Shown here: positions 4,625 through 49,700 of the stretch, piece by piece
How the letters are laid out: every line of letters begins with the position of its first letter
Position numbering within the stretch: position 1 is the stretch's first letter
Assembly: GCA_905250025.1 (NCBI GenBank)
Contig: CAJNOJ010000021.1
Span: 434,001 to 498,000, forward strand
DNA length: 64,000 bases
Direction: 5' to 3'
Origin: Adineta ricciae
Lineage: Eukaryota > Rotifera > Eurotatoria > Adinetida > Adinetidae
Program-made: the position numbers and the translations under genes
Notes under the pieces: generated by a model
Databases searched by the model: none
Told to the model about the DNA's origin: nothing
Seen by the model: the letters and a program-made list of their open reading frames with translations, nothing else

Positions 4625-6715
4625 TTACACGCCTGCACATGCGGGTAATGATTGATCGATAATATTGACTGCACGTTCATAATATTCTTGTGCTTTCGAA
4701 TGATCACCCATCCTTTCATAGATCATGCCCATGTTCTTGTATGAAATGCCTAAATCGGGATGATTCGGAGGAAGAACGTGTGTACTAATTTGAAGATCTT
4801 TCTCAAAATACGGAAGTGCTATTTCATATTCACCCATCTGGCCGTACAGCGAACCAATGTTGTTGTACGACATCGCTAAGTCGGGATGATCTGGAGGAAG
4901 TGATTTCCGTCGAATTTTAAGCGATTTTTCATAATATGGAAGTGCTTTCGTATAATTACCCATCTTGAGATAGATTGAACCAATATTGTCGTAAGAGCCA
5001 CCGAGATCAGGATGAGCCGACGGCAATGATTTTTGACGAATTTGAAGTGCTTTCTCATGATAAATCAATGCTTTTGAATAATCACCCATTTCACCGCAAA
5101 TTATGCCAATATTATTATAAGAGCTCGCCAGATCGGGATGGTCTGAAGGAAGCGATTGTTCTTGAATATTAAGGCTTTCGTCGTACCAGCAGAGAGCGTC
5201 GGAATAAGCTGTCATCTTGCGATAGACTTCACCAATATTGTTGTAGGAGGCAGCAAAGCTTAGATGATTCGATGGAAACATTTTCTGATCGATTTCCAGT
5301 GCTTTTTCGTAAAATTTGATCGCTTTCAAATATCTTCCTTGTTGATCTTTGATGCAGCCAAGTTGATGATAGATGGGTCCTTTTTCTTCATCAGTCGTGG
5401 AACGTTCGAGTAAAACTTGACATACGTCTTCTGCTTTGTTGAATTGGCCCATCTTGCTCAGCACCACACTTAACTGAAACCACCCGGAACGTCCATCGGA
5501 ATCTTCTTGAATCCGTTCTGTAAGTATTCGAAGATCTCTATCATTGTCACTAGTTAGTATCAGTTCGACTTCGTAAAGACGATTGTTCTCGTCGATGGAT
5601 CTGAGATCTCGAATTCGAAAGACGCTATGCATCGAGAAAAGTATTTCACTCTCTGTTTGGAAACAGCCCATATTTTCGACGGCAGCAAATGGTGTTGTTG
5701 ATTGATTTGAATCAACATTCATCACAAATAGGATGCCAATCATGTCAGAATTCGATAGACATTGATACGCGTAATTTAACGATATATCTCGCCTCTCACT
5801 ACAGGATAGAAAGCTATTGAATGCTATCAATCCACCTTGCGTATTTGTCAACTGTTGAAAGTCAGCTTTTGATAAACCTTGTCCACGATACAATCGAAGT
5901 TGCCCACAAGAATCGTGTTGATTGAATTGTTTTCGATGTAGCTGCTGAATTTGACGATGAAGATCAACGATATAGAAACCGATGTTAATAACCACGGTGA
6001 TATCCATGATTCGAAGCGCGCGATTTAACATCGGATAGAGAAAAGATTCTTTCGTATACCACCATATCGGTGTGTGATCATGATACTCTTGGTGAAATTT
6101 CTCAATATTGTTCAGTTCGTATTTATTTGCAGCAAACTGTTTTCGACAATAATCGATGAATTGCTCGAAATGCTCTTGCTCAAAGCTAATTTTCAGTAGA
6201 ATCTCTTTGATGATTTGAGTGTACATAAATGAACAGTCCAGTTCGTCTAACTTTTTCTCCACGGTGATGGTATCTGCGTTCAAAAAACTAATCGAGAGAG
6301 AATTATGTTCACATTGATTGGCAACTTGCTTGATTGCGTCGCAAATCGGAGTGATACACGTGAACGTACCTTTAATTTTGGACCATTCGTTCGTCCACAT
6401 CAAGTGACGCTTCCTATCAGCAGGGAAAATAAAAATCGAATCGACTTGAGGTAGATGATGTATTCGAGGTACAACTTTTTCACCAAATTCGCTTGAAGTG
6501 ATCATACAAATTCTCTCGTCGTGAACGTTTTCAATGAACCGAACGCATACATCGACACTAATAAACGCGTTAACGTTACCAATAGACGATTGCAATTTTG
6601 CGATAGTCCTCTGACATTCGTTGTTGTCCTCGTCGATATTATCAGCAAGCCAGACCAGAAGAACATGCTGTACAATCCGTCCGGTAGATGCAGATCTTGA
6701 CTTCGTTGCACTCAT
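4625..6715 (-). CDS. Intronless ADP-ribosyltransferase-TPR protein (bdelloid-type ART / kinesin-light-chain-like repeats)
   Basis: A single 696-residue frame without introns. Residues about 15-125 form an alpha/beta-looking N-terminal domain (hydrophobic strands HVLLVWLADN, ICMITSS, SIFIFPAD) that I cannot assign; it resembles a receiver- or TIR-like fold only in pattern. Residues about 215-395 match an arginine-specific mono-ADP-ribosyltransferase with the R-S-E triad: Arg277 in LYRGQGLSK, Ser in AFNSFLSCS (301-304), and ExE at Glu355/Glu357 in QTESEILF. Residues about 440-690 hold six 42-residue TPR units of kinesin-light-chain type, each with an SLP..HPDL linker and SYNNIG helix start. No signal peptide is seen, so the protein is probably cytosolic. 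Predicted role: NAD-dependent ADP-ribosylation of protein arginine, with the TPRs binding targets. The triad is complete, so activity is plausible. The physiological role is unknown. The lack of introns contrasts with nearly every neighbour. Confidence 0.85.
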   Translation of the reverse strand: MSATKSRSASTGRIVQHVLLVWLADNIDEDNNECQRTIAKLQSSIGNVNAFISVDVCVRFIENVHDERICMITSSEFGEKVVPRIHHLPQVDSIFIFPADRKRHLMWTNEWSKIKGTFTCITPICDAIKQVANQCEHNSLSISFLNADTITVEKKLDELDCSFMYTQIIKEILLKISFEQEHFEQFIDYCRKQFAANKYELNNIEKFHQEYHDHTPIWWYTKESFLYPMLNRALRIMDITVVINIGFYIVDLHRQIQQLHRKQFNQHDSCGQLRLYRGQGLSKADFQQLTNTQGGLIAFNSFLSCSERRDISLNYAYQCLSNSDMIGILFVMNVDSNQSTTPFAAVENMGCFQTESEILFSMHSVFRIRDLRSIDENNRLYEVELILTSDNDRDLRILTERIQEDSDGRSGWFQLSVVLSKMGQFNKAEDVCQVLLERSTTDEEKGPIYHQLGCIKDQQGRYLKAIKFYEKALEIDQKMFPSNHLSFAASYNNIGEVYRKMTAYSDALCWYDESLNIQEQSLPSDHPDLASSYNNIGIICGEMGDYSKALIYHEKALQIRQKSLPSAHPDLGGSYDNIGSIYLKMGNYTKALPYYEKSLKIRRKSLPPDHPDLAMSYNNIGSLYGQMGEYEIALPYFEKDLQISTHVLPPNHPDLGISYKNMGMIYERMGDHSKAQEYYERAVNIIDQSLPACAGV

Positions 6716-7101: not shown

Positions 7102-8488
7102 CTATTCGTTTGACTTATCGGCTCTCGGATAGGGCCGTCGAAGGTGCGTTTTTTTCAATGTTACACCAAAGCCCGGTTTGTTTGGATCTAAATCAACCCA
7201 TCCATTTTTCGGCAATGGTTCATCATCGAAAAGTTGCCCAAAATACGGCGAAATACTGGCACCATCGGCTGCAAGTAGAATGAATTCACTCATAGGCAAA
7301 TTAGGAAATGCATATTGTAGATGGTAGGAGTAAATCGATGAACCATGCGGAATAATGGGAATGTCATAGGCAGACGCCAGAGCAACAATACGACGAGCTT
7401 CGGTAATCCCACCGCACCAAGTTACATCCGGTTGAAGGAGATCGGCACATTCTTGGTCGAGTAATAACTTGAAACCCCATCTTGTGTATTCGTGTTCACC
7501 GCAAGTTAATAAAGCAGTTGATGGATTACGTTTCTTCACTTCGGTATAGCCGGCGTACTGATCTGGTGGTAAATGTTCTTCGACCCTAGATAAATCAAAT
7601 GAATAATACCTATTATATATATACAAAACGTGTTTATACCATTTGATATTGTATGGTTTGATCAATTCAAGCAATTTTAATGTATAACCAACTGTTAGCG
7701 CCATGTAGCAATCCTAATAATGATAACATCTCGTGGGAACTATCGTTCTTCATTGCAGGCAAATAACTTACGATCATTAGTGGAAAATCAGGTCCAACAG
7801 CTTCCCGAATCTCTTTTACACGTTGAATGTTTTTTCTCATTCCTTCGTCTCCGTCAGCTGGTCCAAATGGTAACGGAAATTTCGCACCTTTGAATCCTAA
7901 ATTTTTTGCTGCTAACGGATCATAACACGTCGCATAGCAAGGCAAACTTCCTTTGGTTTTGCCTCCCAATAGTTTATACACAGGTTCGTTACGCAATTTT
8001 CCAGCACAGTCCCAAAGTGCCAGATCAATTGCTGATATTGCCTGAACAGTTAAACCTTTTCGACCATAGTTCATCGACGAACGCCACATAACATCCCATA
8101 GAAATTCGATGTTTAACGGGTCTTGTCCTTCGAGAAATCGACTAAAATGATTTTCGATGAGAAAGCACGCAGGTTCACCCCCGATTGACACACCTACGCC
8201 AGTCATTCCGTTTGTTAATTCAATTTCAACAATAACCGAACCGAGTGCATCGATGCCCCACGTAGATCGACGAGCTTTGTATTTTTCATAGAATGACATG
8301 GGATTCGCGATAGGCCATTGGTCTGTTCCAAGAATCCAGTGACCTTCAGCTTGAGAATGACAATCAGCGAAACCACCGCCTTCTTCTTCAGCTTTTTTCG
8401 ATGCTATAACATACGCTCGAACATTCAAGATCGTCACAGCATTTGCATCTGGTTTAACATCCGGAAGGACGGTCAAAATCAACGACAT
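7102..8488 (-). CDS. L-rhamnonate dehydratase (enolase superfamily, mandelate racemase subgroup), 3 exons
   Basis: Predicted to dehydrate L-rhamnonate to 2-keto-3-deoxy-L-rhamnonate in non-phosphorylative rhamnose breakdown. The N-terminal half carries family hallmarks: SQAEGHWILG, ARRSTWGIDALGSVIVEIE, GGEPACFLIENHFSRFLEG, NYGRKGLTVQAISAIDLALWD. The barrel carries metal ligands in order: Asp of DCYM, Glu of WVEEHLPPDQY and Glu of CGEHEYTRWGF. These are followed by QPDVTWCGGITEARRI and the catalytic His region IIPHGSSIYSYH. Two short GT-AG introns (about 7719-7771 and about 7588-7641) rejoin the frame exactly at LMI/DCYM and IKW/VEE, so the gene looks intact and adapted to the host. The start MSLILTVLPD is the first ATG of the frame. 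The enzyme is known from bacteria and fungi and is not a standard animal gene, so horizontal acquisition is likely. A related sugar-acid dehydratase specificity cannot be excluded. Confidence 0.88.
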
Positions 8489-9070: not shown

Positions 9071-12000
9071 ATGGGACAAAACTCGTCGATCACACAAACA
9101 TTTCAACGAATACGAAACTCTTTTAGTAGAAATGGAAATCTACCATCAACAGATGCGAACGATAGACGTCTAATAACAATCAACAGTGGACCTCAAACTA
9201 CAAAATTCATATCAAATGATATCAGTACGAGTAAATACTCGCTAATCACATTCTTACCAAAGTTTCTCTTTGAACAATTTCGTAAATATTCGAATATATT
9301 CTTCCTCTGTATCGTCATCTTTCAAGTAAATATTGACACATCATCATCGTAAATACATACCCAGATTTCGTTTCTTTTTAGCAAATTCCGGGTGTATCCC
9401 CAACGGGTAGATATACGACTGCAGTTCCTTTGTCATTCATTCTATGCTGTGCAGCTATCAAAGAAATTATAGAAGACGTGGTCAGTTGAATCTCTCTCGA
9501 TTTGATTTTGTCTGAATGTTTCATGTAGAAACGACACATACAAGACGATGCAGTCAATCGTCGAAAAGTTCTGAGTATGTTGAAATAATTTAATATGGCA
9601 AGAAGAAATGATTATCTGTTGATTTAGTCTATCGGGAAGGAAATTGGATTTACACATCTTGGTCCAAAGTCAAAGTCGGTGATATTGTTAAAGTTATCGA
9701 CAAAGAATACTTTCCAGCCGATCTGGTGCTAATCTCTTCCGGGTAGGTTCGATTTCATTGTAATATCATCTGATTAGACGTTTTTAGCGAGCCTAATTCG
9801 ATATGTTACATACAAACATCAAATCTCGATGGAGAAACCAATTTAAAAGTTCGACAAGTATGTTCGATTTACGAACTTTCGTGTCAAAATCAGCTATGAT
9901 ATACAATAGGGTTTACCGCAAACAGCGCACGTTCTATCCAGCATGCAACTGAAGGATTTGCAAGGCACGGTCGAATGTGAATTGCCCAACCGAAACCTAT
10001 ACGAATTTGCCGGAACATTGAAAATCAACAGTGCTGCTTTTCCAATCCCGCTAGGCGCAGATCAGATTCTTTTACGCGGTTCTCAACTAAAGAATACAGC
10101 TTGGATCTATGGAATTGTTATCTATAGCGGACACGACACAAAACTAATGATGGTTCGTTCTGAAAGCTTTGTGGACGTGATGGTAATCATGATTTGTATT
10201 TAGAATTCATCATCCGTTCCATTGAAACGAACAAATGTTGAACAGGTTACGAATAAACAAGTGAATATCGAATGATTGCTTTTATGTTATTATAACTTTA
10301 TTTAAATCGTAGATTCTATTTCTTTTGATCATACTCATCGTCTTGTGCTTGTTCAGCACTATTGCCGGCGAAGTTTGGAGCTATCGAAACAAAGATACAC
10401 ATTGGTATTTAGGTTACAATCTTGATGAAGATCGAGAAAGTAATGACAGAGAGAGGGGAAAGAGAGAATACGAATTATTGATTGACAGTGTTCGCTTCTA
10501 GCTTGGCGTCATATTGGCTTTACATTTTTAACATTTTTTATTCTATTCAATAATTTGATTCCAATTTCATTGCAAATTACCGTCGATCTCGTAAAATTCA
10601 TTCAGGCATATTTTATCAATTGGGTAAAACATTTAAATAGCGTTGCAGTTCAATATGATCTGCGTTTCTTTCTGTTCAGGATAAAGATATGTATGATTCC
10701 GAAACAGATACTCCAGCGAATGCTAGAACATCGAATTTGAATGAAGAATTGGGCCAAGTAAAATATATTTTCTCAGATAAAACAGGTACTTTAACAAAGA
10801 ATGAAATGATATTCAAACAATGTTCGATATCTGGTATTATGTATGGGTAAGTTCCCAAGAAAAATACTTTTTGCAAATGTTTTTATTCGTACTTTGATAG
10901 GTCAGGAAATTTAGCCGAGTTTAACAATTATGAACTACTGAAAAATCTCGAACAACATGTAAGTTCGTCTTTTGGTAGTGTAAAGTTCAGAGGTGCTATT
11001 TTCGGTTTGTTGCTAGGAAACACGAGATGAAATTCGCGAGTTCTTGACACTGTTGGCAACATGTCACACTGTTGTACCAGAAAATAAAGCTTATACAGAA
11101 TTGCCAACGGAAGTAGCGTACCAAGCATCATCACCAGGTAGTCCAAGGCCATCGAAAACATCAATCATTCTATGAGATGCTCCTTTAGATGAATTCGCAT
11201 TGGTCACAGCTATGAAATTATTGGGCATTGTGTTTTACAGTCGAACGCCAGATAGTGTTACAATCAATTTCGTAAGTCAGCATAGATATTCATGGAATTT
11301 CGTTTCAACGTGTTTCGTTTGTAGCGAGGTGAAAAAGAAGAATATAAGATTCTAAATGTCTTGGAATTCAGCAGGTATCTCATGCCGTCACATTATTTTT
11401 GCGAAGATAGTTCCATTCTCTCGTCTTCTAGCGATCGGAAACGAATGAGCGTCATTATTCGAACGCCAAGGAATGAAATCAAATTGTACTGCAAAGGCGC
11501 TGTACGACCAAATCATCTTCTCAAACTTCCGAGTACAGTTTATTTCTATTCAGGATAGTGTCATTCTGGAACGTCTTGCTGCGGACGATCAACACGTCAA
11601 GGAGACAGGTGAACACCTAGAAAATTTTGCTAATTCTGGTCTTCGAACATTATGTCTTGGCTATCGGACTTTAACAAACGAAGAATACAATGTAAATAAG
11701 CACGCTTCATATCTTACTTGAAAGATCATTTCTCTTTTGATAGATATGGTCCACTAAATATCGTGAAGCATCAACTGCAATTAACAACCGAAATGAATTA
11801 GTCGCAGAAGTTGCCAATCAAATTGAATGCAATCTGAAACTATTAGGTGCTACTGGTATCGAAGATAAACTGCAAGATGTGGGTAGTTCTCAATCATTGA
11901 TAAATATTCACTTATCTTTCTTTTTTGTCTTCTAGCAAGTTTCAGAAAGTCTGACGATGTTGCACAAAGCTGGAATAAAGGTAACTATCAACAATAATGA

Positions 12001-14388
12001 AATGTGATTTCTATTTGAATACCTTCTAGATATGGGTACTAACTGGTGACAAAAAAGAAACGGCTATCAATATTGGATATTCGTGTAAGCTACTCTCCAA
12101 TCAAATGCTCAATCTGACATTGGACGAAGCAAATCTTGAAGTAAGCTGATACCAATTGAGACTTTTTGAGAGACACTCTGAGAAATTAGGATACACAACG
12201 GCAATTACGACAACATTGCCAACAATTTGGCGATTCTTTGCGAAAAGAAAATCCAGCTTCATTAGTTATCGAAGGGCAAACGTTGAAGTATGCATTGCAA
12301 GCTCCATGCCGACAGGACTTTCTCGATTTGGCGATCTCTTGTAAAACAGTGATCTGTTGTCGGTAACAGAAATTGTTCGAACTCACAAGACTAACAAATA
12401 GTGATGTTACTCAAATTTTAGAGTAAGCCCAAAACAGAAAGCAGAAGTGGTTGAGTTAGTCAAACGATCCGTGGACGCCATCACCTTGGCGATTGGCGAC
12501 GGAGCAAATGACGTTGGTATGATTCAGGTAAGATTGACATTATAAATGGTCATCCGTTGCTCTATGCTATATTTTGTATTCTAGGCAGCACATGTTGGTG
12601 TTGGTATAATGGGCCGTGAAGGTGTTCAAGCTGCATGTGCATCGGATTATACTATTGGCCAATTCCGCTTTTTGACTAAGCTTTTATTCGTTCATGGCGT
12701 ATGGAGCTATCGTCGACTGTGTAAAGTGCTACTCTATTCTTTCTATAAAAACATATGCCTCTACGTTATGGAGGTTAGTTGATTCTAAAGAGTCATGATA
12801 AATCATGAAGAGAGAGTTTTCGTTCTTGTAGCTTTGGTTTGCGTTTCATAACGGATTTTCTGGTCAAATTTTGTTTGAACGATGGACAATTGGTATTTAC
12901 AATGTGATATTTACTGCTGCACCACCGATGGCATTGGGTTTGCTCGACCGTTCATGCAATGCAGCAACCATGATGGAATATCCAGCGATCTATCGAATGT
13001 CACAGAATCGAACGGATTTCAATATCAAAGTAAATCAATTTTGTTGATCATTTGTCCAGGAAGAACAGGTTATTTTTCCTAGATCTTTTGGACTTGGTGC
13101 CTCAATGCAGTTTACCATTCGATCATTCTCTACTTTATGTCCTATCGAATGCTTCGACATGGTACGTTGAACTTTTCATCACGATTCTCAAACTCCGAAA
13201 GACAAATGAGCACGAGCAAAATGATTCATATAATTTAGATATTGTTCATGATAGTGGAATCGTTCTCGGATCTCATTTATATCTCGGCAACCTAATTTAT
13301 ACTGTAAATTGAAAGATTCTTGCCTCTACTAACCGTTTCGACACGTTTTCCCTAACACTTCCTCTGTATCCTTTGCATGAACTCACTAGCATGTTCTTCT
13401 ATAACGTGTTTCTCTTTCCTTACATCAATAGACGTTGCCTTTCGCGACGGACAACTGGGTGATTCCCTCTTCTTAGGCAACATGATCTATACGGTATGTC
13501 TTGCTTGCTATCACCTCAAATTACTAATTGTTTATTATTGTTGATCAAAAAAGAGAAATAAACGAGCCTTTTCTGTTCTTTGTTTAGTACGTCGTTTTCG
13601 TCGTTTGTCTCAAAGCAGGACTTGAAAGTGATTCATGGACATTGGTAAGTAGACGAAATCTATACTCTGTTCAATGCAAAACTTCTCTTCATAGTTAACA
13701 CATATTGCTATTTGGGGCAGTATTGCTTCATGGTTTATCTTTTTCGCTATATACAGTTACGTATGGCCAACGTTTCCTGTAGCACCCGAAATGCGTGGGA
13801 TGGTAAGTAGAACATCAAATATGTTTTATGCAATGACATCTCTTTTGACTCGATCAATTGAACACGTAAACATTATTTCGTTTAGGCAAAATATGTGTTC
13901 TCCAGTCCATCTTTTTGGTTTGGCTTGTTGTTAATTCCTATCACCGCTTTACTAGCTGACTTCATCTATAATTGGTAAATGAAAATTTCAAGGATGAAGA
14001 GTTTGAAATACTCCTCATTCATTTCGTTTTAGTATTCAAAGGACTTTTTACAAAACCTTAATGCAAGAAGTGCAGGAGAAGGAAGTGAAGCATCAAGATC
14101 TTTCCGATCTAGTCGCATCACGACAAACACCAGCTGCACCGCGCGCTACTGAACGATTAGCTCTCCTGAAGAGTGTCTTTACACGCACAAGAACACCACG
14201 AGAAGTTGGAATCATCGATAGACCTTACCGTAAGTTATTCTTAATGCAGGACACAATGCTTGATCTCGATCATCACTCCTTTCTATTCAGATGGATTCGC
14301 CTTTTCTCAAGAAGAAAATGGTGTCGTACCACAAGATCAGTTAATCCGAACCTATGACACAAATATCGAAAAACCACCGGGATATTGA
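9071..14388 (+). CDS. P4-ATPase phospholipid flippase (ATP8A1/2-like), many exons
   Basis: Flips aminophospholipids to the cytosolic leaflet, normally with a CDC50 partner in plasma or Golgi/endosomal membranes. The start is ATG 9071 ([12 protein letters not shown]). Ordered motifs: [19 protein letters not shown] before TM1; [14 protein letters not shown] in the actuator domain (about 9830); the P4-specific [16 protein letters not shown] in TM4 (about 10550); [12 protein letters not shown] with the phosphorylated Asp (about 10770-10805); and [11 protein letters not shown] in the hinge (about 12495-12527). The C-terminal [10 protein letters not shown] tail is typical of ATP8A. The final exon is reached from RPY through an intron ending at about 14290; the stop is TGA 14386-14388. 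More than 20 short introns interrupt the frame, and some inner junctions (about 11500-12400) are approximate. One exon coding part of a luminal loop near TM7-TM8 is present in two tandem copies (separate entries). Confidence 0.92.
13239..13303 (+). other. Alternative flippase exon, copy A (65 nt)
   Basis: This segment is bounded by taatttag on the left and a gtaaat donor on the right. It enters in the same phase as copy B after the exon ending YRMLRH. It reads [22 protein letters not shown] (first residue split), clearly homologous to copy B, and it joins in frame to the next exon [11 protein letters not shown]. Its length is 2 mod 3, like copy B. Confidence 0.8.
13432..13493 (+). other. Alternative flippase exon, copy B (62 nt)
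   Basis: This segment is bounded by atcaatag and a gtatgt donor. It reads [21 protein letters not shown] (first residue split) and fits the same upstream and downstream exons as copy A. Including both copies would add 127 nt and break the frame, so at most one can be used per message. Confidence 0.8.
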
Positions 14389-17920: not shown

Positions 17921-18794
17921 TTATTCTTCGGTAGTGAGGCCCCTCTTCTCACCGGTTGCTCGTTCATCGTCTAATTCTTTCGCAGCACGTGCTTCTAACT
18001 CTCGAATGTCGTTCATTGTTAAACCGTACCATTCATCTGTGCAACAGAACAATTGTCGATGAAAATTTCGAAATAAACGTTCCTCTTGAGTCATGATCAA
18101 ATTTTCCACGCGAGTTTGAAGACCAAACCATTTAAATTTCTCGCGAACTAGTTTGTAACAACACCTAAAAGAACAAAACCGATTACAAAAACACACTCTG
18201 CTCTCCCGACGCATCTTACATGTATGGCTGACATGTTTGCTGCCATTTTTCATTGGCTAGTAATGGTCCACGACCGGTTTTAGCTGATTTATACTTCTCC
18301 GGATCATCAGCTTCTTTATAATCAGCTCGGCTGACTGGATCTGCGATGTTTATATAGACAATATTTCGTTTTTTTAATTCATCACCGGTCAATTGATGAA
18401 CGTTTTCGGATTCGCCTCGGTCAGCTACATGCAACGTTGATATGTCGATAATCATATTATCCTTCATGTACGGATTGGTTAAGACTGTTTTACAGTATGG
18501 ATAAGCGTTCCAAGCTTCTTCGTGCATAGATAAACTTGAATCGGAAAACAATAAGCGTACAAAGCCTGGCACGCGTGAGCCGAGATGATAGATTTTCTTG
18601 GTGTATTGACCTGTACGATATTTGCCGAGAAAGGCTTCCGACATGGGCTTTTCGAACGGTTGATTGGCTAAAATTTCAACACCTTCGCCACCACCGGTAT
18701 TTTGTTTGGACATTTTTGCAGTTGCAAACAGTTGCGCCACTTGATATTCTTCAACTGTCACAGGCAAAATAATTCGAAATTCCGTGATAAGCAT
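17921..18794 (-). CDS. Phosphatidylinositol transfer protein, class I (PITP alpha/beta-like), 2 exons
   Basis: A soluble lipid carrier that exchanges phosphatidylinositol and phosphatidylcholine between membranes and supplies phosphoinositide kinases. The START-like fold is recognised along its whole length: MLITEFRIILPVTVEEYQVAQL at the start, then TGGGEGVEILANQPFEK, YTKKIYHLGSRVPGFVR, HEEAWNAYPYCKTVLTNPYMK, and the KTGRGPL element. One intron (about 18165-18219) joins CQPYM to CCYKLVREKFKWFGLQTRVE. Exon 2 ends with RLFRNFHRQLFCCTDEW and the acidic regulatory tail GLTTEE. Total length is close to the usual 270 residues. An acceptor-like tttctag lies 8 bp before the ATG. No defect is seen. 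It shares strand with the ribosomal protein gene about 600 bp upstream. Confidence 0.95.
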
Positions 18795-43716: not shown

Positions 43717-46700
43717 ATGCCGCATTTACTTCATCATTTACCACCGCCACCACCACCACCACAACCTCTTCCACTCGCAGGATCATTCGACCCGATTCCA
43801 CCCATTCCTCCTCGCACCCGCTCACGTCCAGCTTCTCAACAACAAACAGCTTTCACAACACCAAACCATCCCAAGACCAATTTCCTCTGCCTTGATGATC
43901 TTCCGTCACCGGATCGTGAATGGCAACTATTCGAAAATATTGGAGATGGAACATACGGCGAAGTGTTTCGCGTAACTAGATTTCTTGTTCTTGTTCTAAA
44001 AAAATTAGTTTTTCTCTTAGGCAAAAAATATTCGCCATCCGGACTTTAATGCTGCTGTTAAAATTATGCATCCAACCAATGAAGTTCTCGAGGAAATCGA
44101 ACAAGAATACCGTGTTCTTCTTCAACTATCTACTCATGAAAATCTTTGTCGATTCTATGGTGCCTATTTGAAGCGTGCACCCGCGCCACCATTACCACCT
44201 CCACGTACCTCAATAACATCTCCTCCGGCTCCGATCGATAAAATGAGTCTTCTCTCCATCGATACAAATTCTGCCAACAGCTTTGCTAATCCATCTTCTA
44301 CAGTTCAACTTGATCAACTATGGTTAGTTATGGAATTGTGCACAAGTGGTAGCGTTACTGATCTGGCCAAATCAATGCTGAAAGCAAATCAACGTCTGGA
44401 AGAATCTGTTATCGCCTATATCATACGTGAAACATTGAAAGCTCTGCATCATCTTCATTCCAATAATGTTGTTCATCGAGATGTGAAAGGTCACAATATA
44501 TTAATCACCGGAGATGGACATATCAAATTAATTGACTTTGGTGTTAGTGCCTATTTGGATCCAAATCGTGGACGACGGAATACATCCGTTGGTACACCAT
44601 TTTTTATGGCACCCGAAGTTATTGTTTGTGAAAGACAAATGGATTGTGACTATGATACACGCGCTGATGTTTGGTCGACGGGTATTACAGCTATTGAAAT
44701 AGCAGAAGGTAGAGAGAGATTTCTTCCAGTCGCTGTTGGAAACTTGATCAATTGTTTCTTCTATAGGAGAGCCTCCACTTGCTGAAATGCATCCAATGCG
44801 TGCACTAGTTTCTATTCCGCGAAATCCACCTCCATGTTTGCGTCAGCCGCATGAATGGTCGAAAGAATTCAACGATTTTATTCGTCAATGCCTGATTAAA
44901 GATTTCGTTATTCGACCCACTGTTGCACAAATGCTAAATCATCCATTTCTCATTCGAATACCTACAGATAGCACCGAAGCTCGCCGTTCGATTGTTCAAA
45001 TTGTTCAACGTTACAAACGTTGTTATGATTTATGCGTGAAGAAAACCAGCCGTGAGACATGTGGAGTGAAAAACGGGCACATTCGAGGTAAGTCAGAAAC
45101 ATGTTCGTCTGTCGCCATCGAAAATGCAGTTATACACTCACCTGTCCTCGAACCAGCTGCATCTGTATCAAAACGAATGTTACAAATGATTAGTAAACCA
45201 AATGAACATCATAAACGGCCAGCTCCACCACCACCACCGCCGACGTCATCTTCGAATGATAACTGTAAAACCAAACGGAAATCTCAATCTCGTCGACATC
45301 AAAAACAACTTCAAGACGAAAACCGTTCCGCACAGTTCTATATGTACGATAGAGCGTCTGAAGATGCACATGTTCGTCATCCCACCTTGAGTAAAAAATC
45401 GAATAGTAAACATTTTTATAATTCAACCTACGATTGTGCGTATTCGACAACTTATATAACAACCGATGATTTAGCACAATTGGAAACGTTCGATGAACAA
45501 TCTATCATGACACACATGTACAATCGATTCCTGTCGAACCAAATCTATACATACATCGGTGATATACTTGTTGTAAGTCATTCATTCCAGAAACACAATT
45601 CGTCCCTTATCTTTTCCTTCTAGGCCGTTAATCCATTTCATTCATTACCAATCTACAGTAAAGATGTAATGATTCGTTATCGTTCAAGCGTCAAAAGCGA
45701 ACAACCGCCTCACATCTATGCTTTGGCTGATCTTACATACCAAGCCATGTTACATGATTCCGAAAATCAATACATTGTCATATCGGGTGAAAGTGGCTCA
45801 GGCAAAACTCAATCGGCTAATTTTCTTGTTAAGCAATTAACGTTTCTCGGCAATGCACCACATAAAAGTCTGCAAGAGAAAATTCTCCAAATTAATCCGC
45901 TGATCGAAGGATTCGGCAATGCTCGAACAATCATCAATGATAATTCATCACGTTTTGGCAAGTATCTCGAAATGCTATTCACTAAACAAGGCCGTGTTAC
46001 TGGCGCACGTTTATCCGAATATCTCTTAGAGAAAACGCGTGTTGTCAATCAAGGACATGGCGAGAGAAATTTTCATATTTTCTATTATCTGTACCATGGC
46101 TTAGCATCATCGCTGCCGAATGATAAACAGGCATTTTATTTATCAACAAGTCAAACGTATCGTTACATGAAAACCGACTGTGATGATGAACAGCATTATG
46201 CGGAGAACTTCAAAGAAAAGTTTCGCACCATTGAAAAGTGCTTCGAAATTATTGGCTTTCAATCGGATGAAGTGAAATCAATCTATCGAATCTTAGCTGG
46301 CCTATTACATTTAGGAAACATCAATTTTCATCAAAATGAAGGCCATTTCATCGATGGGAAAACTTGTTTGACAGATGGTTATCTACTAAAGATTGTTTGT
46401 GAGTTATTCGGTTTAGACATAGCCGAACTTGATTTAGCGCTAACAACGTGCAATATTGTTACACGAGGTGAAACAATTCAACGTTCAACAACATTACAGG
46501 AATCTCAGTCGACTCGAGACGCGATGGCTAAAGCACGTAAGTTGTTCAGAACGTCATTGATTCATTTAGAACGATCTTCTCTAGTTTACAATCGACTTTT
46601 CTCCTGGATTGTCAATCGCATTTCTGCGCTACTTTCACCATCGACAAACAGTTCGAAGAACGTCTTTCGTCCGATAACCGACGACGATTCGAGTCTCCAG

Positions 46701-49700
46701 TCATATTCGTGTAATAATTACAATAACAACAATAACAATAACCAACAAGATCTAAGCGAAAACGAAGCAGATGACAATTTCGAAGATGAATACGAGACAG
46801 GGAATCCGAATATGGCCGTAATGACATCGTACCCGCCACCAACAGTTATGTGTGCAATGCGTCGAACATTTGATTATCTGGATATGACGCCATCGTCATC
46901 ATCATTTTTACTTCAATTGCAACAATCTGAAGATGATGATGATGATGATGACGGTGATTACGAGCTGTTGAATATGAATAATAATAATAATACGAGCAAT
47001 ACTCCATCACCACCACCGTCACAAAAGTCTAATTCAAGTAAATCTAATCATCAGCGAAAATCGAACTTTATCAATGATCTAAGTAATAAACCGGTTCAGA
47101 ATCTGATTGATAACTGGACAAAAGCAGTTGCTGCTTCGTCGAACTGGATACCACCAGCTGAAAGCAAACACTTCGGACGTTTGAATCTATCTAATCGCGC
47201 AATAAGCGAAACAAATTTATTGCTTCGAAAGAAAACTGTTGAAAACAATGTTAGAAAACACTACCAATCCAGCAATAATCTTTGCAACAACATAAAACAA
47301 TCCACGAACTTCTCATCGAAACAAGATTCTATCTCTGAATCCGCTCAAGATCAAGATGCATTGAAGATTGCCATTCTTGATATATTCGGTTTCGAGAATT
47401 TCTCGACCAATTCATTCGAACAGCTGTGTATTAACATTGCGAACGAGCAAATTCAATACTATTTCAATCAGCACGTATTTGCATGTGAAAGACAAGAGTA
47501 CATCAATGAAAACTTAGCAGTTTTACCATTACCAGCCAAAATGGACTTTACATTTTACGATAATCGACCTTTGTTAGATATGTTTCTCAGTAAACCAGTA
47601 AGTTCAACACATTCGTTGTGATTTTATTAAAAATTGTTCACCTAGGTTGGAATTTTGGCCTTGATTGATGAGGAAAGTCGTTTTCCAAAAGCAACTGACT
47701 TTACACTTGTGGATAAACTGAATGCAAACTTTTCCAATTCACCCCTATACATTCGTTCGAAATCAAGCTTTTCGTCCAGTTCGATCTCGTCGTCTTCCTC
47801 ATCAACGCATCAATCAGTTCCTTCATTTTCGATCATTCATTTCGCTGGACAAGTTCAATACGATGCTCGAAGTTTTCTCGAGAAAAACCGTGATTATCTA
47901 GCACCGGAAATCATACAAATCCTCCGTTCATCACATGTGCAACTAATCAGTTCGCTCTTTCAATTACCTTCGTCGAAAGTAGGCACATTACAAGAATCCG
48001 AGCAGCCTATTACTGATGCCACTCTTGACTTAACAAATACATTGATACCTCTGAGTGCCAATCATAATCGGGTGCAAGCAACAGTTAGCACCTACTTCCG
48101 ATATTCCCTAACTGATTTATTTTCGAAAATGACCTGTGGATCGCCGAAATTTGTTCGCTGCTTCAAACCAAACAACGAACGCATTCCCGGTTGTTTTGAT
48201 ACCCAAACTGTGCTTGAACAATTGAAGTACAGTGGGATCCTAGCAGGTTTGTACACGCGTGAAGTATACAGAAAATTCACATATCGATCTTTTAGCGGCA
48301 AAAATCCGTCGGTTTGGGTATTCACATCGTATTCCCATTGCAACTTTTGTTCAACGTTACGGCATCCTCGTTTATCCTGCGACGGCTGATCTGCCATTAA
48401 CACGAGAAACTTGTGAGAATATACTGCACAAACTGAAGATGCAAAACTGGACAATTGGTTTGTTGTGATTTTTCTTTGAATCATTGAAGGAAAGACTATC
48501 TTTCATCATTTTCATTTAGGAAAAAGTAAAGTTTTCCTGAAATACTATCATGCGGAACAATTAACGCGTCTGTACTCGGAAATACTCCATGCCATTGTTA
48601 CGATCCAATCGTATGTTCGCATGCGCATAACTCGCTCCTACTATAAACATCGGTATTATAAACACTCGAATGATATGATGATTCAAGAACTCCATCGGCA
48701 TCCGAAATTTTCACGCGTTCGTATTTTCTCTAGAAGTTTTCATTCGATGTAAATCGAATTCTTTCTTTTTAGCCGCTTTTTGATGACGAGAAAGCGATTA
48801 TTCTTGTTCAAGCGTATATTCGCGGCTATCTTCAACGACGTCAATTTCAGCAGTCCCTAAAGAAACCTTTAACACCTGAAATCGCAGCAATTCGTATTCA
48901 AAAATCCTATCGAGGTTTTCGATTTCGTAAAGTGTTCCATCTATATGAGCAACGTTTAAACACTCAAATACTTTGTTTTCTTCAACAAATTGAATTAATC
49001 AACAATGATTTTTTCATAAAAATCGTTCGAACCAACTACTGTGTACCGATGAAATCCATTATGACCTCTCAAATCAACAATAAACACTTCTTTCCACCTC
49101 CACCACCTTTGCCTTTACCATCACCGTTGATGCATTCTGACATCCCGATTCCAATTCTTCCGCCACCATCATCATTCGGTATATCTCCAGCACGTTCTCA
49201 TTCGATGTTAACATCTCGTTCCAATCGATCACCATCGCCGGTCGTATTCGGATCCAAATTCGCGCAAGTTCGAGATATATTCGCTCGCGGCGGTGGCGGT
49301 GGTGGTCCAACAACCGCAGCTTATCCGTCCGCTCCGATCAGAGCCTCACTTCCAAGCTTATCGGCAATTCCAAGTTTGGAGCAAACTCGTAGTCCGAAAA
49401 CAGTCACTGTTCTAAATGCTGTGCAAGAATATCAACGACAACATATTAATAATCATCAATCCAACTTAAAACGTTTCACTCAGTTTCATAGTGGCGTTGT
49501 TGCTAATCTAAACCGTTCAGCTACCAATGGCGGACTTCGATCTCGTAACACTGGACTGAATAATAATGCTAATAAATGTCCAGTCAAACAAAATCTGCCA
49601 GCATACGTTACATCATCTCCTAAACAACAACCAAAGCCAATTACACGGGTAATTTGAAATCAACTTTATTCTTTTTCTTTTTCTGAATGTCGAGAAAAGT

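Follow-up and report, generated by a model that had tools for sequence, protein, structure and literature searches.

In the rotifer Adineta ricciae, an ATP8A1-type P4-ATPase (flippase) gene contains two adjacent, homologous exons, A and B. These are very probably protein-coding exons that are used mutually exclusively, with one of them in each productive mRNA. The outcome would be two pumps that are identical save for 21–22 residues, which cover the exoplasmic loop joining TM7 to TM8 together with the beginning of TM8. The gene is located in a stretch of 64,000 nucleotides of genomic DNA (contig CAJNOJ010000021.1, positions 434,001 to 498,000, forward strand), which is referred to as the window. 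Positions are those of the window, and the features of the gene are given in Table 1.

Table 1. Positions of the flippase gene, the exon pair and the intronic motifs in the window
Feature	Positions	Strand	Remarks
ATP8A1-type P4-ATPase gene	9071..14388	+	30 exon positions, position 25 in two versions (A and B)
Constant exon 24, TM7	13083..13161	+	Last base is the first of a codon (ATG/gtacgt)
Alternative exon A (25A)	13239..13303	+	65 nt, 22 residues, weak donor gtaaat
A–B intron	13304..13431	+	128 nt, longest in the window gene
ACTAAC (within TACTAAC)	13328..13333	+	24 nt past the A donor
TGCATG, RBFOX-type element	13374..13379	+	52 nt upstream of the B acceptor
Alternative exon B (25B)	13432..13493	+	62 nt, 21 residues, probably ancestral-like
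Constant exon 26, TM8	13588..13644	+

The exons of the flippase gene were placed by hand and the placement was checked by translation. All 30 introns of the spliced model are of the GT-AG type and there are no internal stops. The A-only and B-only isoforms are both full-length, with 1156 and 1155 amino acids, respectively (stop not counted). Isoform B matches the Pfam families PhoLip_ATPase_N and PhoLip_ATPase_C, and isoform A matches TIGR01652 at 1322 bits. The nearest PDB entry is 6k7g (ATP8A1) at 1410 bits, with Drs2 as the runner-up at 1026 bits, and ATP8A1 ranks ahead of Drs2, ATP8B1, ATP11C, and ATP9 among the solved relatives. The GF/YAFS autoinhibitory motif, described in a section of PMC7773333, is present at the C terminus, at the start of exon 30. 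The gene is a complete ATP8A1-type P4-ATPase. By similarity, its product is predicted to flip phosphatidylserine (PS) with a CDC50 partner, and CDC50 genes have been found in the same genome.

Exons A and B are both entered after one codon base and left at a codon boundary, and they have the same neighbours. The coordinates, the lengths, the 128 nt spacing, the AG/GT borders, and the phase that had been reported for the pair in a sequence-only reading of the window all check out. That reading had also stated that including both exons shifts the frame, which is borne out, as translation of the A + B product stops prematurely after 988 codons. The product with neither exon also stops prematurely, after 964 codons. 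From the luminal-loop motif that had been assigned to both exons, the xLGNxIYT part is common to A and B, while the GxxLGxxLYLG part fits A only. None of 2000 shuffles matches the similarity score of A and B. The exons are adjacent, internal, and homologous, have similar lengths and an identical phase, and are each in frame when used alone, which are the features of a mutually exclusive exon (MXE) pair.

The pairing goes beyond chance, as shown by masking one exon and scanning the introns of the window gene and 1.5 kb flanks for AG..GT segments with a matching phase and a length within 30 nt. With A masked, the scan gives 148 candidates, 14 of them open; A scores +46 against B and all other open candidates score below 0. 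With B masked, it gives 150 candidates, 15 of them open, and B is the sole candidate above 0.

Two further matching loci have been identified in the genome, on contigs C177 and C253. Their coding DNA is 97.4% identical and, for this reason, they are probably alleles; we will use the term “second copy” for both. The second copy shares 75% coding identity with the window gene over exons 10–30, and the genome search returned no near-identical second contig for the window gene. We take this two-copy gene structure to fit the bdelloid origin assumed in the sequence-only reading. In both C177 and C253, exon A has 65 nt and exon B 62 nt, the phases and the AG/GT borders are kept, and there is no indel and no stop. 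Since three separate contigs bear the pair, an assembly artefact is ruled out. According to the sequence-only reading, disruption of A or B in close relatives would mark a dead duplicate, and the opposite has been found. Retention of both intact exons in the second copy strongly supports mutually exclusive use as the probable reading of the pair. In C177 and C253, where A alone was masked, the hidden-exon scan scores above 0 only for A and a truncated A. With A and B both known, no third copy or further duplicated exon scores above 0 in the three gene copies. The intron after exon 11 is 170/174 nt long in the second copy (loci L006 and L007; 174 nt at L007 3323–3496) compared with 58 nt in the window gene, and no duplicate exon has been found within it in the scan.

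Some differences and similarities between the gene copies lie outside the exon pair. In the window gene, an intron separates exons 21 and 22, and it is missing in L006 and L007; by comparison of the copies, this intron was either lost or gained once the gene had been duplicated. Downstream of the flippase gene, on the opposite strand, there is an ORF at 18216–18794 (−), presumably PITP-like. The two other loci that match it best, at 86% and 85%, are on C177 and C253, where they are also downstream and on the opposite strand. Between the flippase stop and this ORF, the window has ~3.8 kb, C177 ~8.6 kb, and C253 ~6.8 kb. Because the best matches of the PITP-like ORF lie downstream of the second flippase copy, the neighbourhood seems to have been duplicated as a block. 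Elsewhere in the window, a long ORF at 4625–6715 (−) presumably encodes, by eye, an ADP-ribosyltransferase-type domain with TPR-like repeats downstream of it. We take two ORFs at 7102–8488 (−), also by eye, to be one split enolase/mandelate-racemase-type enzyme, possibly a foreign gene. The kinase-like and then myosin-motor-like ORFs at 44066–48389 (+) look like a gene of the class III myosin type, an assignment we likewise assume by eye.

The divergence of the two gene copies allows the conservation of the exons to be compared with that of the rest of the gene. Between the window gene and the second copy, pS over exons 10–30 is 0.70, which is near saturation, and pN is 0.11. The copies share 48 of 66 bases in exon A (binomial P of 5e-13) and 47 of 63 bases in exon B (2e-13), relative to a baseline of 0.29 identity at synonymous sites, which was treated as the unconstrained level. 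At the residue level, 14/22 are identical between the two A exons and 15/21 between the two B exons. By comparison, A and B share 11 residues within the window gene and 12 within the second copy. Since the A exons and the B exons are closer to their counterparts than A is to B in either copy, the exon was duplicated before the gene was. Between C177 and C253, exon A is unchanged and exon B has two synonymous changes. On the other hand, the introns beside the pair show large indels between the gene copies. An unused exon would be expected to be scrambled at such divergence, so the intact A and B argue for use. These comparisons indicate that both exons have stayed under selection since the gene duplication.

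B aligns with ATP8A1 residues 956–976 without gaps, while A requires a gap for one extra residue, and the stretch scores 131 bits against ATP8A1 with B and 118 bits with A. Based on this likeness of B to human ATP8A1, B is called the ancestral-like form and A would be the derived one. The order is reversed against ATP11C (39 bits with A, 34 with B), which is a mild counterpoint. In terms of the mechanism, B would provide the default, ancestral-like loop and A a specialised one.

Unused exon duplicates occur in many genomes, and one of the two exons, most likely A, could be a dead duplicate that sits unused in an intron. This explanation draws on the apparently derived state of A, on its weaker donor, and on its evolution being faster than the gene average, with a pN of 0.24 compared with 0.11 (40 of 735 same-length segments of exons 10–30 are as high). 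The pN of exon B is not unusual (154/736 as high). We consider a dead duplicate extremely improbable, as A keeps its length, frame, splice sites, and the 14 identical residues even though synonymous sites are near saturation. In addition, the base identity of A between the copies is far above the unconstrained level, and A remains intact while the flanking introns carry large indels.

The early stops in the products with both or neither exon could also mean that the pair acts as an on/off switch of the poison-exon type. In such a switch, one exon would be productive, inclusion of both or neither would give a decay transcript setting the flippase level, and the second isoform would be minor. 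However, the frame and the loop residues would not need to be kept for this function, yet both exons retain their protein sequence. Also, pN is below pS in each of the exons (0.24 and 0.36 in A, 0.17 and 0.52 in B), the contrast in A being small and measured on 22 codons. A pure switch of this kind is therefore improbable. The pS of A and B together (0.44) is as low in only 17 of 714 same-length segments from the rest of exons 10–30. For A alone, 14/735 segments are as low, and for B alone 84/736, which is not unusual. The low pS of the pair fits the presence of exonic splicing signals.

From the sequences, we infer a splicing pattern in which two layers would keep A and B apart, together with a candidate regulator and a possible effect on CDC50. 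The first layer would be formed by weak sites facing each other across the A–B intron, the A donor in all copies and the B acceptor in the window copy. The second layer would be the reading frame, which forbids double inclusion and double skipping, since such products carry an early stop and would probably be removed by decay. Splice sites were scored with matrices trained on the other introns of the same gene. The A donor is weak, with 13/82 other donors scoring lower in the window and 2/82 in the second copy. The B acceptor is the weakest in the window (0/82 lower) and ordinary in the second copy (25/82 lower). The weakness of the B acceptor is limited to the window copy, and this counts against the weak-site layer. 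The introns around the pair have 77, 128, and 94 nt in the window gene, while the other 27 introns have 45–62 nt, with one exception of 83 nt. In the second copy, the introns around the pair have 93, 169, and 116/117 nt. These longer-than-most introns in both copies have been counted in favour of exclusive splicing.

Exclusivity could instead be physical, with a distant branch point for B (TACTAAC, branch A at ~+29) lying too near the A donor for A and B to be joined. This would lead to the same protein outcome and would replace the enforcing step only, so it is compatible with mutually exclusive use of A and B. A similar arrangement is found in OGDH exons 4a/4b, with a branch-point-like sequence near the donor of the first exon; in the human gene the branch points are 25–41 nt from the donor, according to an excerpt of PMC7969005. 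In Adineta ricciae, all copies have ACTAAC close to the start of the A–B intron (+25 and +42), and the window has a single AG (+85) between ACTAAC and the B acceptor. On the other hand, the second copy has three AGs in this interval (+60, +70, and +90 in C253; +53, +70, and +90 in C177). The AG-free zone of the second-copy acceptor is 77 nt. Unlike what the excerpt describes for OGDH, the AG-free zone here stops short of ACTAAC, with the least reach in the second copy. The absence of an AG expected for an OGDH-type distant branch point is thus not seen in any of the contigs. Also, most introns of the gene have 45–62 nt, hence the steric limit is small. A branch point acting in this way is unlikely.

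The exon could also be selected by RNA structures that compete within the introns on either side, as in Dscam. The region folds better than expected in C253 (z of −2.37, with 0 of 100 shuffles folding as well), while in the window it has a z of 0.09 and 50 of 100 shuffles are as good. No shared pairing was identified in single-sequence folds of the window and C253. Such a mechanism is very improbable, and in the window, where folding equals that of the shuffles, it is unsupported.

For mutually exclusive use, the choice between the exons would most plausibly fall to an RBFOX-type factor acting at the UGCAUG in the A–B intron, favouring A and restraining B. Of the 30 introns in the window gene, the A–B intron alone contains TGCATG, and the motif is also present in the A–B introns of C177 and C253, 42 nt before B. 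Both A–B introns (window and C253) contain it in a fraction of 0.0005 of 4000 dinucleotide shuffles. Both contigs of the second copy also have TGCATG downstream of B, and C177 carries another in intron 10; these extra sites blur the placement rule. The ACTAAC motif, which we take to be either a STAR/Quaking-type site or a distant branch point, recurs at position +42 of the A–B intron in both contigs of the second copy, and both A–B introns (window and C253) contain it in a fraction of 0.00375 of the shuffles. Overall conservation of the A–B intron is not enriched, with 10 shared 6-mers compared with 7.7 expected (P of 0.29). Because the motifs were chosen post hoc and 6-mer sharing is not enriched, the regulator is kept as a lead only. 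RBFOX-like partial-exon matches are found on C36 (64% and 78%) and C4 (68% and 82%), among 38 RRM matches and by similarity only, and Quaking-like coding exons have also been found in the genome. RBFOX proteins follow a position rule in which an upstream UGCAUG restrains the following exon, which here would favour A over B. In C. elegans egl-15, as described in part of PMC3585155, exon 5B is repressed by RBFOX proteins, which act through a UGCAUG within the intron that precedes 5B. Taken together, an RBFOX step in the exon choice has a chance close to, but somewhat below, even.

The pair encodes the TM7–TM8 loop on the exoplasmic side, according to the alignment to 6k7g and to the 10-TM scheme of P4-ATPases taken from an extract of PMC12424579. 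The sequence-only reading had suggested that this loop could touch the CDC50 partner or the substrate exit. In the structural description quoted from PMC9045818, the CDC50A ectodomain covers the extracellular loops of ATP8B1, all but that of TM1–2. The lipid path is formed by TMH1–4 and TMH6, with TM7–10 in a supporting role, in the relevant passage of PMC7773333. Based on the ectodomain cover and the lipid-path helices, an effect on CDC50 contact is more likely than an effect on lipid exit. Therefore, the first half of the suggestion is plausible, with the contact being taken over from ATP8B1, and the second half is less likely. The A loop would most likely alter CDC50 contact or CDC50 choice, and through these the exit, location, or turnover rate of the pump. 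That the A/B choice affects CDC50 at all is a tentative proposal by analogy. Three CDC50-like loci have been observed, L046 (C102), L047 (C145), and L048 (C185). C145 and C185 are 95% alike, C102 has ~67–68% identity to those two at the DNA level, and this two-copy pattern is the pattern of the flippase.

Isoforms of related P4-ATPases have been described before. Ding et al. in 2000 reportedly found four isoforms of ATPase II (ATP8A1) and, judging from the title, the variation is said to affect ATPase activity and phospholipid specificity. The splice isoforms of C. elegans tat-1 diverge in their last five exons and at the C terminus, as stated in an excerpt of PMC2572054. The present gene shares with ATP8A1 and tat-1 the existence of isoforms, which are predicted here, but the variation is at the C terminus in tat-1 and would be in the TM7–TM8 loop here.

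Tandem mutually exclusive exons are known in the PMCA family, ryanodine receptors, and sodium channels (PMC9741552, in part). They are also known, as tandem duplicates, in the C. elegans V-ATPase subunit unc-32 and the FGF receptor egl-15 (section of PMC3585155). As far as these sources describe, neighbouring homologous exons alter one short region in all of these cases, as they would here, while the gene in the window is a P4-ATPase and the swapped region is an exoplasmic loop. The UGCAUG element in a nearby intron is another likeness to egl-15 and unc-32. In egl-15, the element precedes the whole pair, as 5B is the first exon, whereas it lies between A and B here; its placement upstream of the repressed exon 5B is the same as that relative to B. 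In unc-32, it is in intron 7b and not between the two exons, unlike in the window gene. These placements are those given in the cited section.

The claim that no such switch is known in the P4-ATPase family has to be narrowed. Human ATP10B, a P4-ATPase of a different subfamily, is listed with an MXE cluster in PMC5740500, although its position in the protein is absent from the text portion of that paper. What does stand is that no TM7–TM8 loop switch in P4-ATPases is described among the literature matches listed and in the parts of the papers covered. The literature extracts on Drosophila ATPalpha splicing give no exclusive pair for that gene. Mutually exclusive exon pairs are a well-known kind, and the version in the flippase TM7–TM8 loop appears to be undescribed, as we did not find a report of it.

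Within the genome, matches to PF16212 are found in at least 17 places, three of which are the window gene, C177, and C253. In 8 of the 14 other places (C287, C34, C26, two on C105, C107, C55, and C282), tblastn finds the loop once, with no stop, each of the eight loci giving one match better than E 0.01. C23 and C24 give no match in this search. C23, C9, C130, C37, and C75 were judged from the open frame of the PF16212 match alone, and C24 is too broken to be judged. Among these at least 17 places, the pair has been found solely in the window gene and its second copy, as far as the sequences can be read in this way.

Taken as a whole, the pair could be an old, RBFOX-controlled tissue switch that swaps the CDC50-facing TM7–TM8 loop and gives two flippases that differ in the partner they choose, in their location, or in their regulation. 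The loop would then be an unrecognised control point of PS flippases. This full proposal is rather unlikely as it stands; if true, the two gene copies and the two CDC50 types (C102 versus C145/C185) would multiply the combinations. According to an extract of PMC11460456, what TM7–10 contribute to flippases is ‘not very well understood’, and Drs2/Dnf1 chimeras of TM7–10 were misfolded. Two selected loops in an otherwise identical pump are a natural swap experiment for the TM7–10 region. Such a swap bears on whether the TM7–TM8 loop sets CDC50 pairing, ER exit, or activity. The pair also provides a case of an exon pair that has been retained in parallel in two old gene copies.
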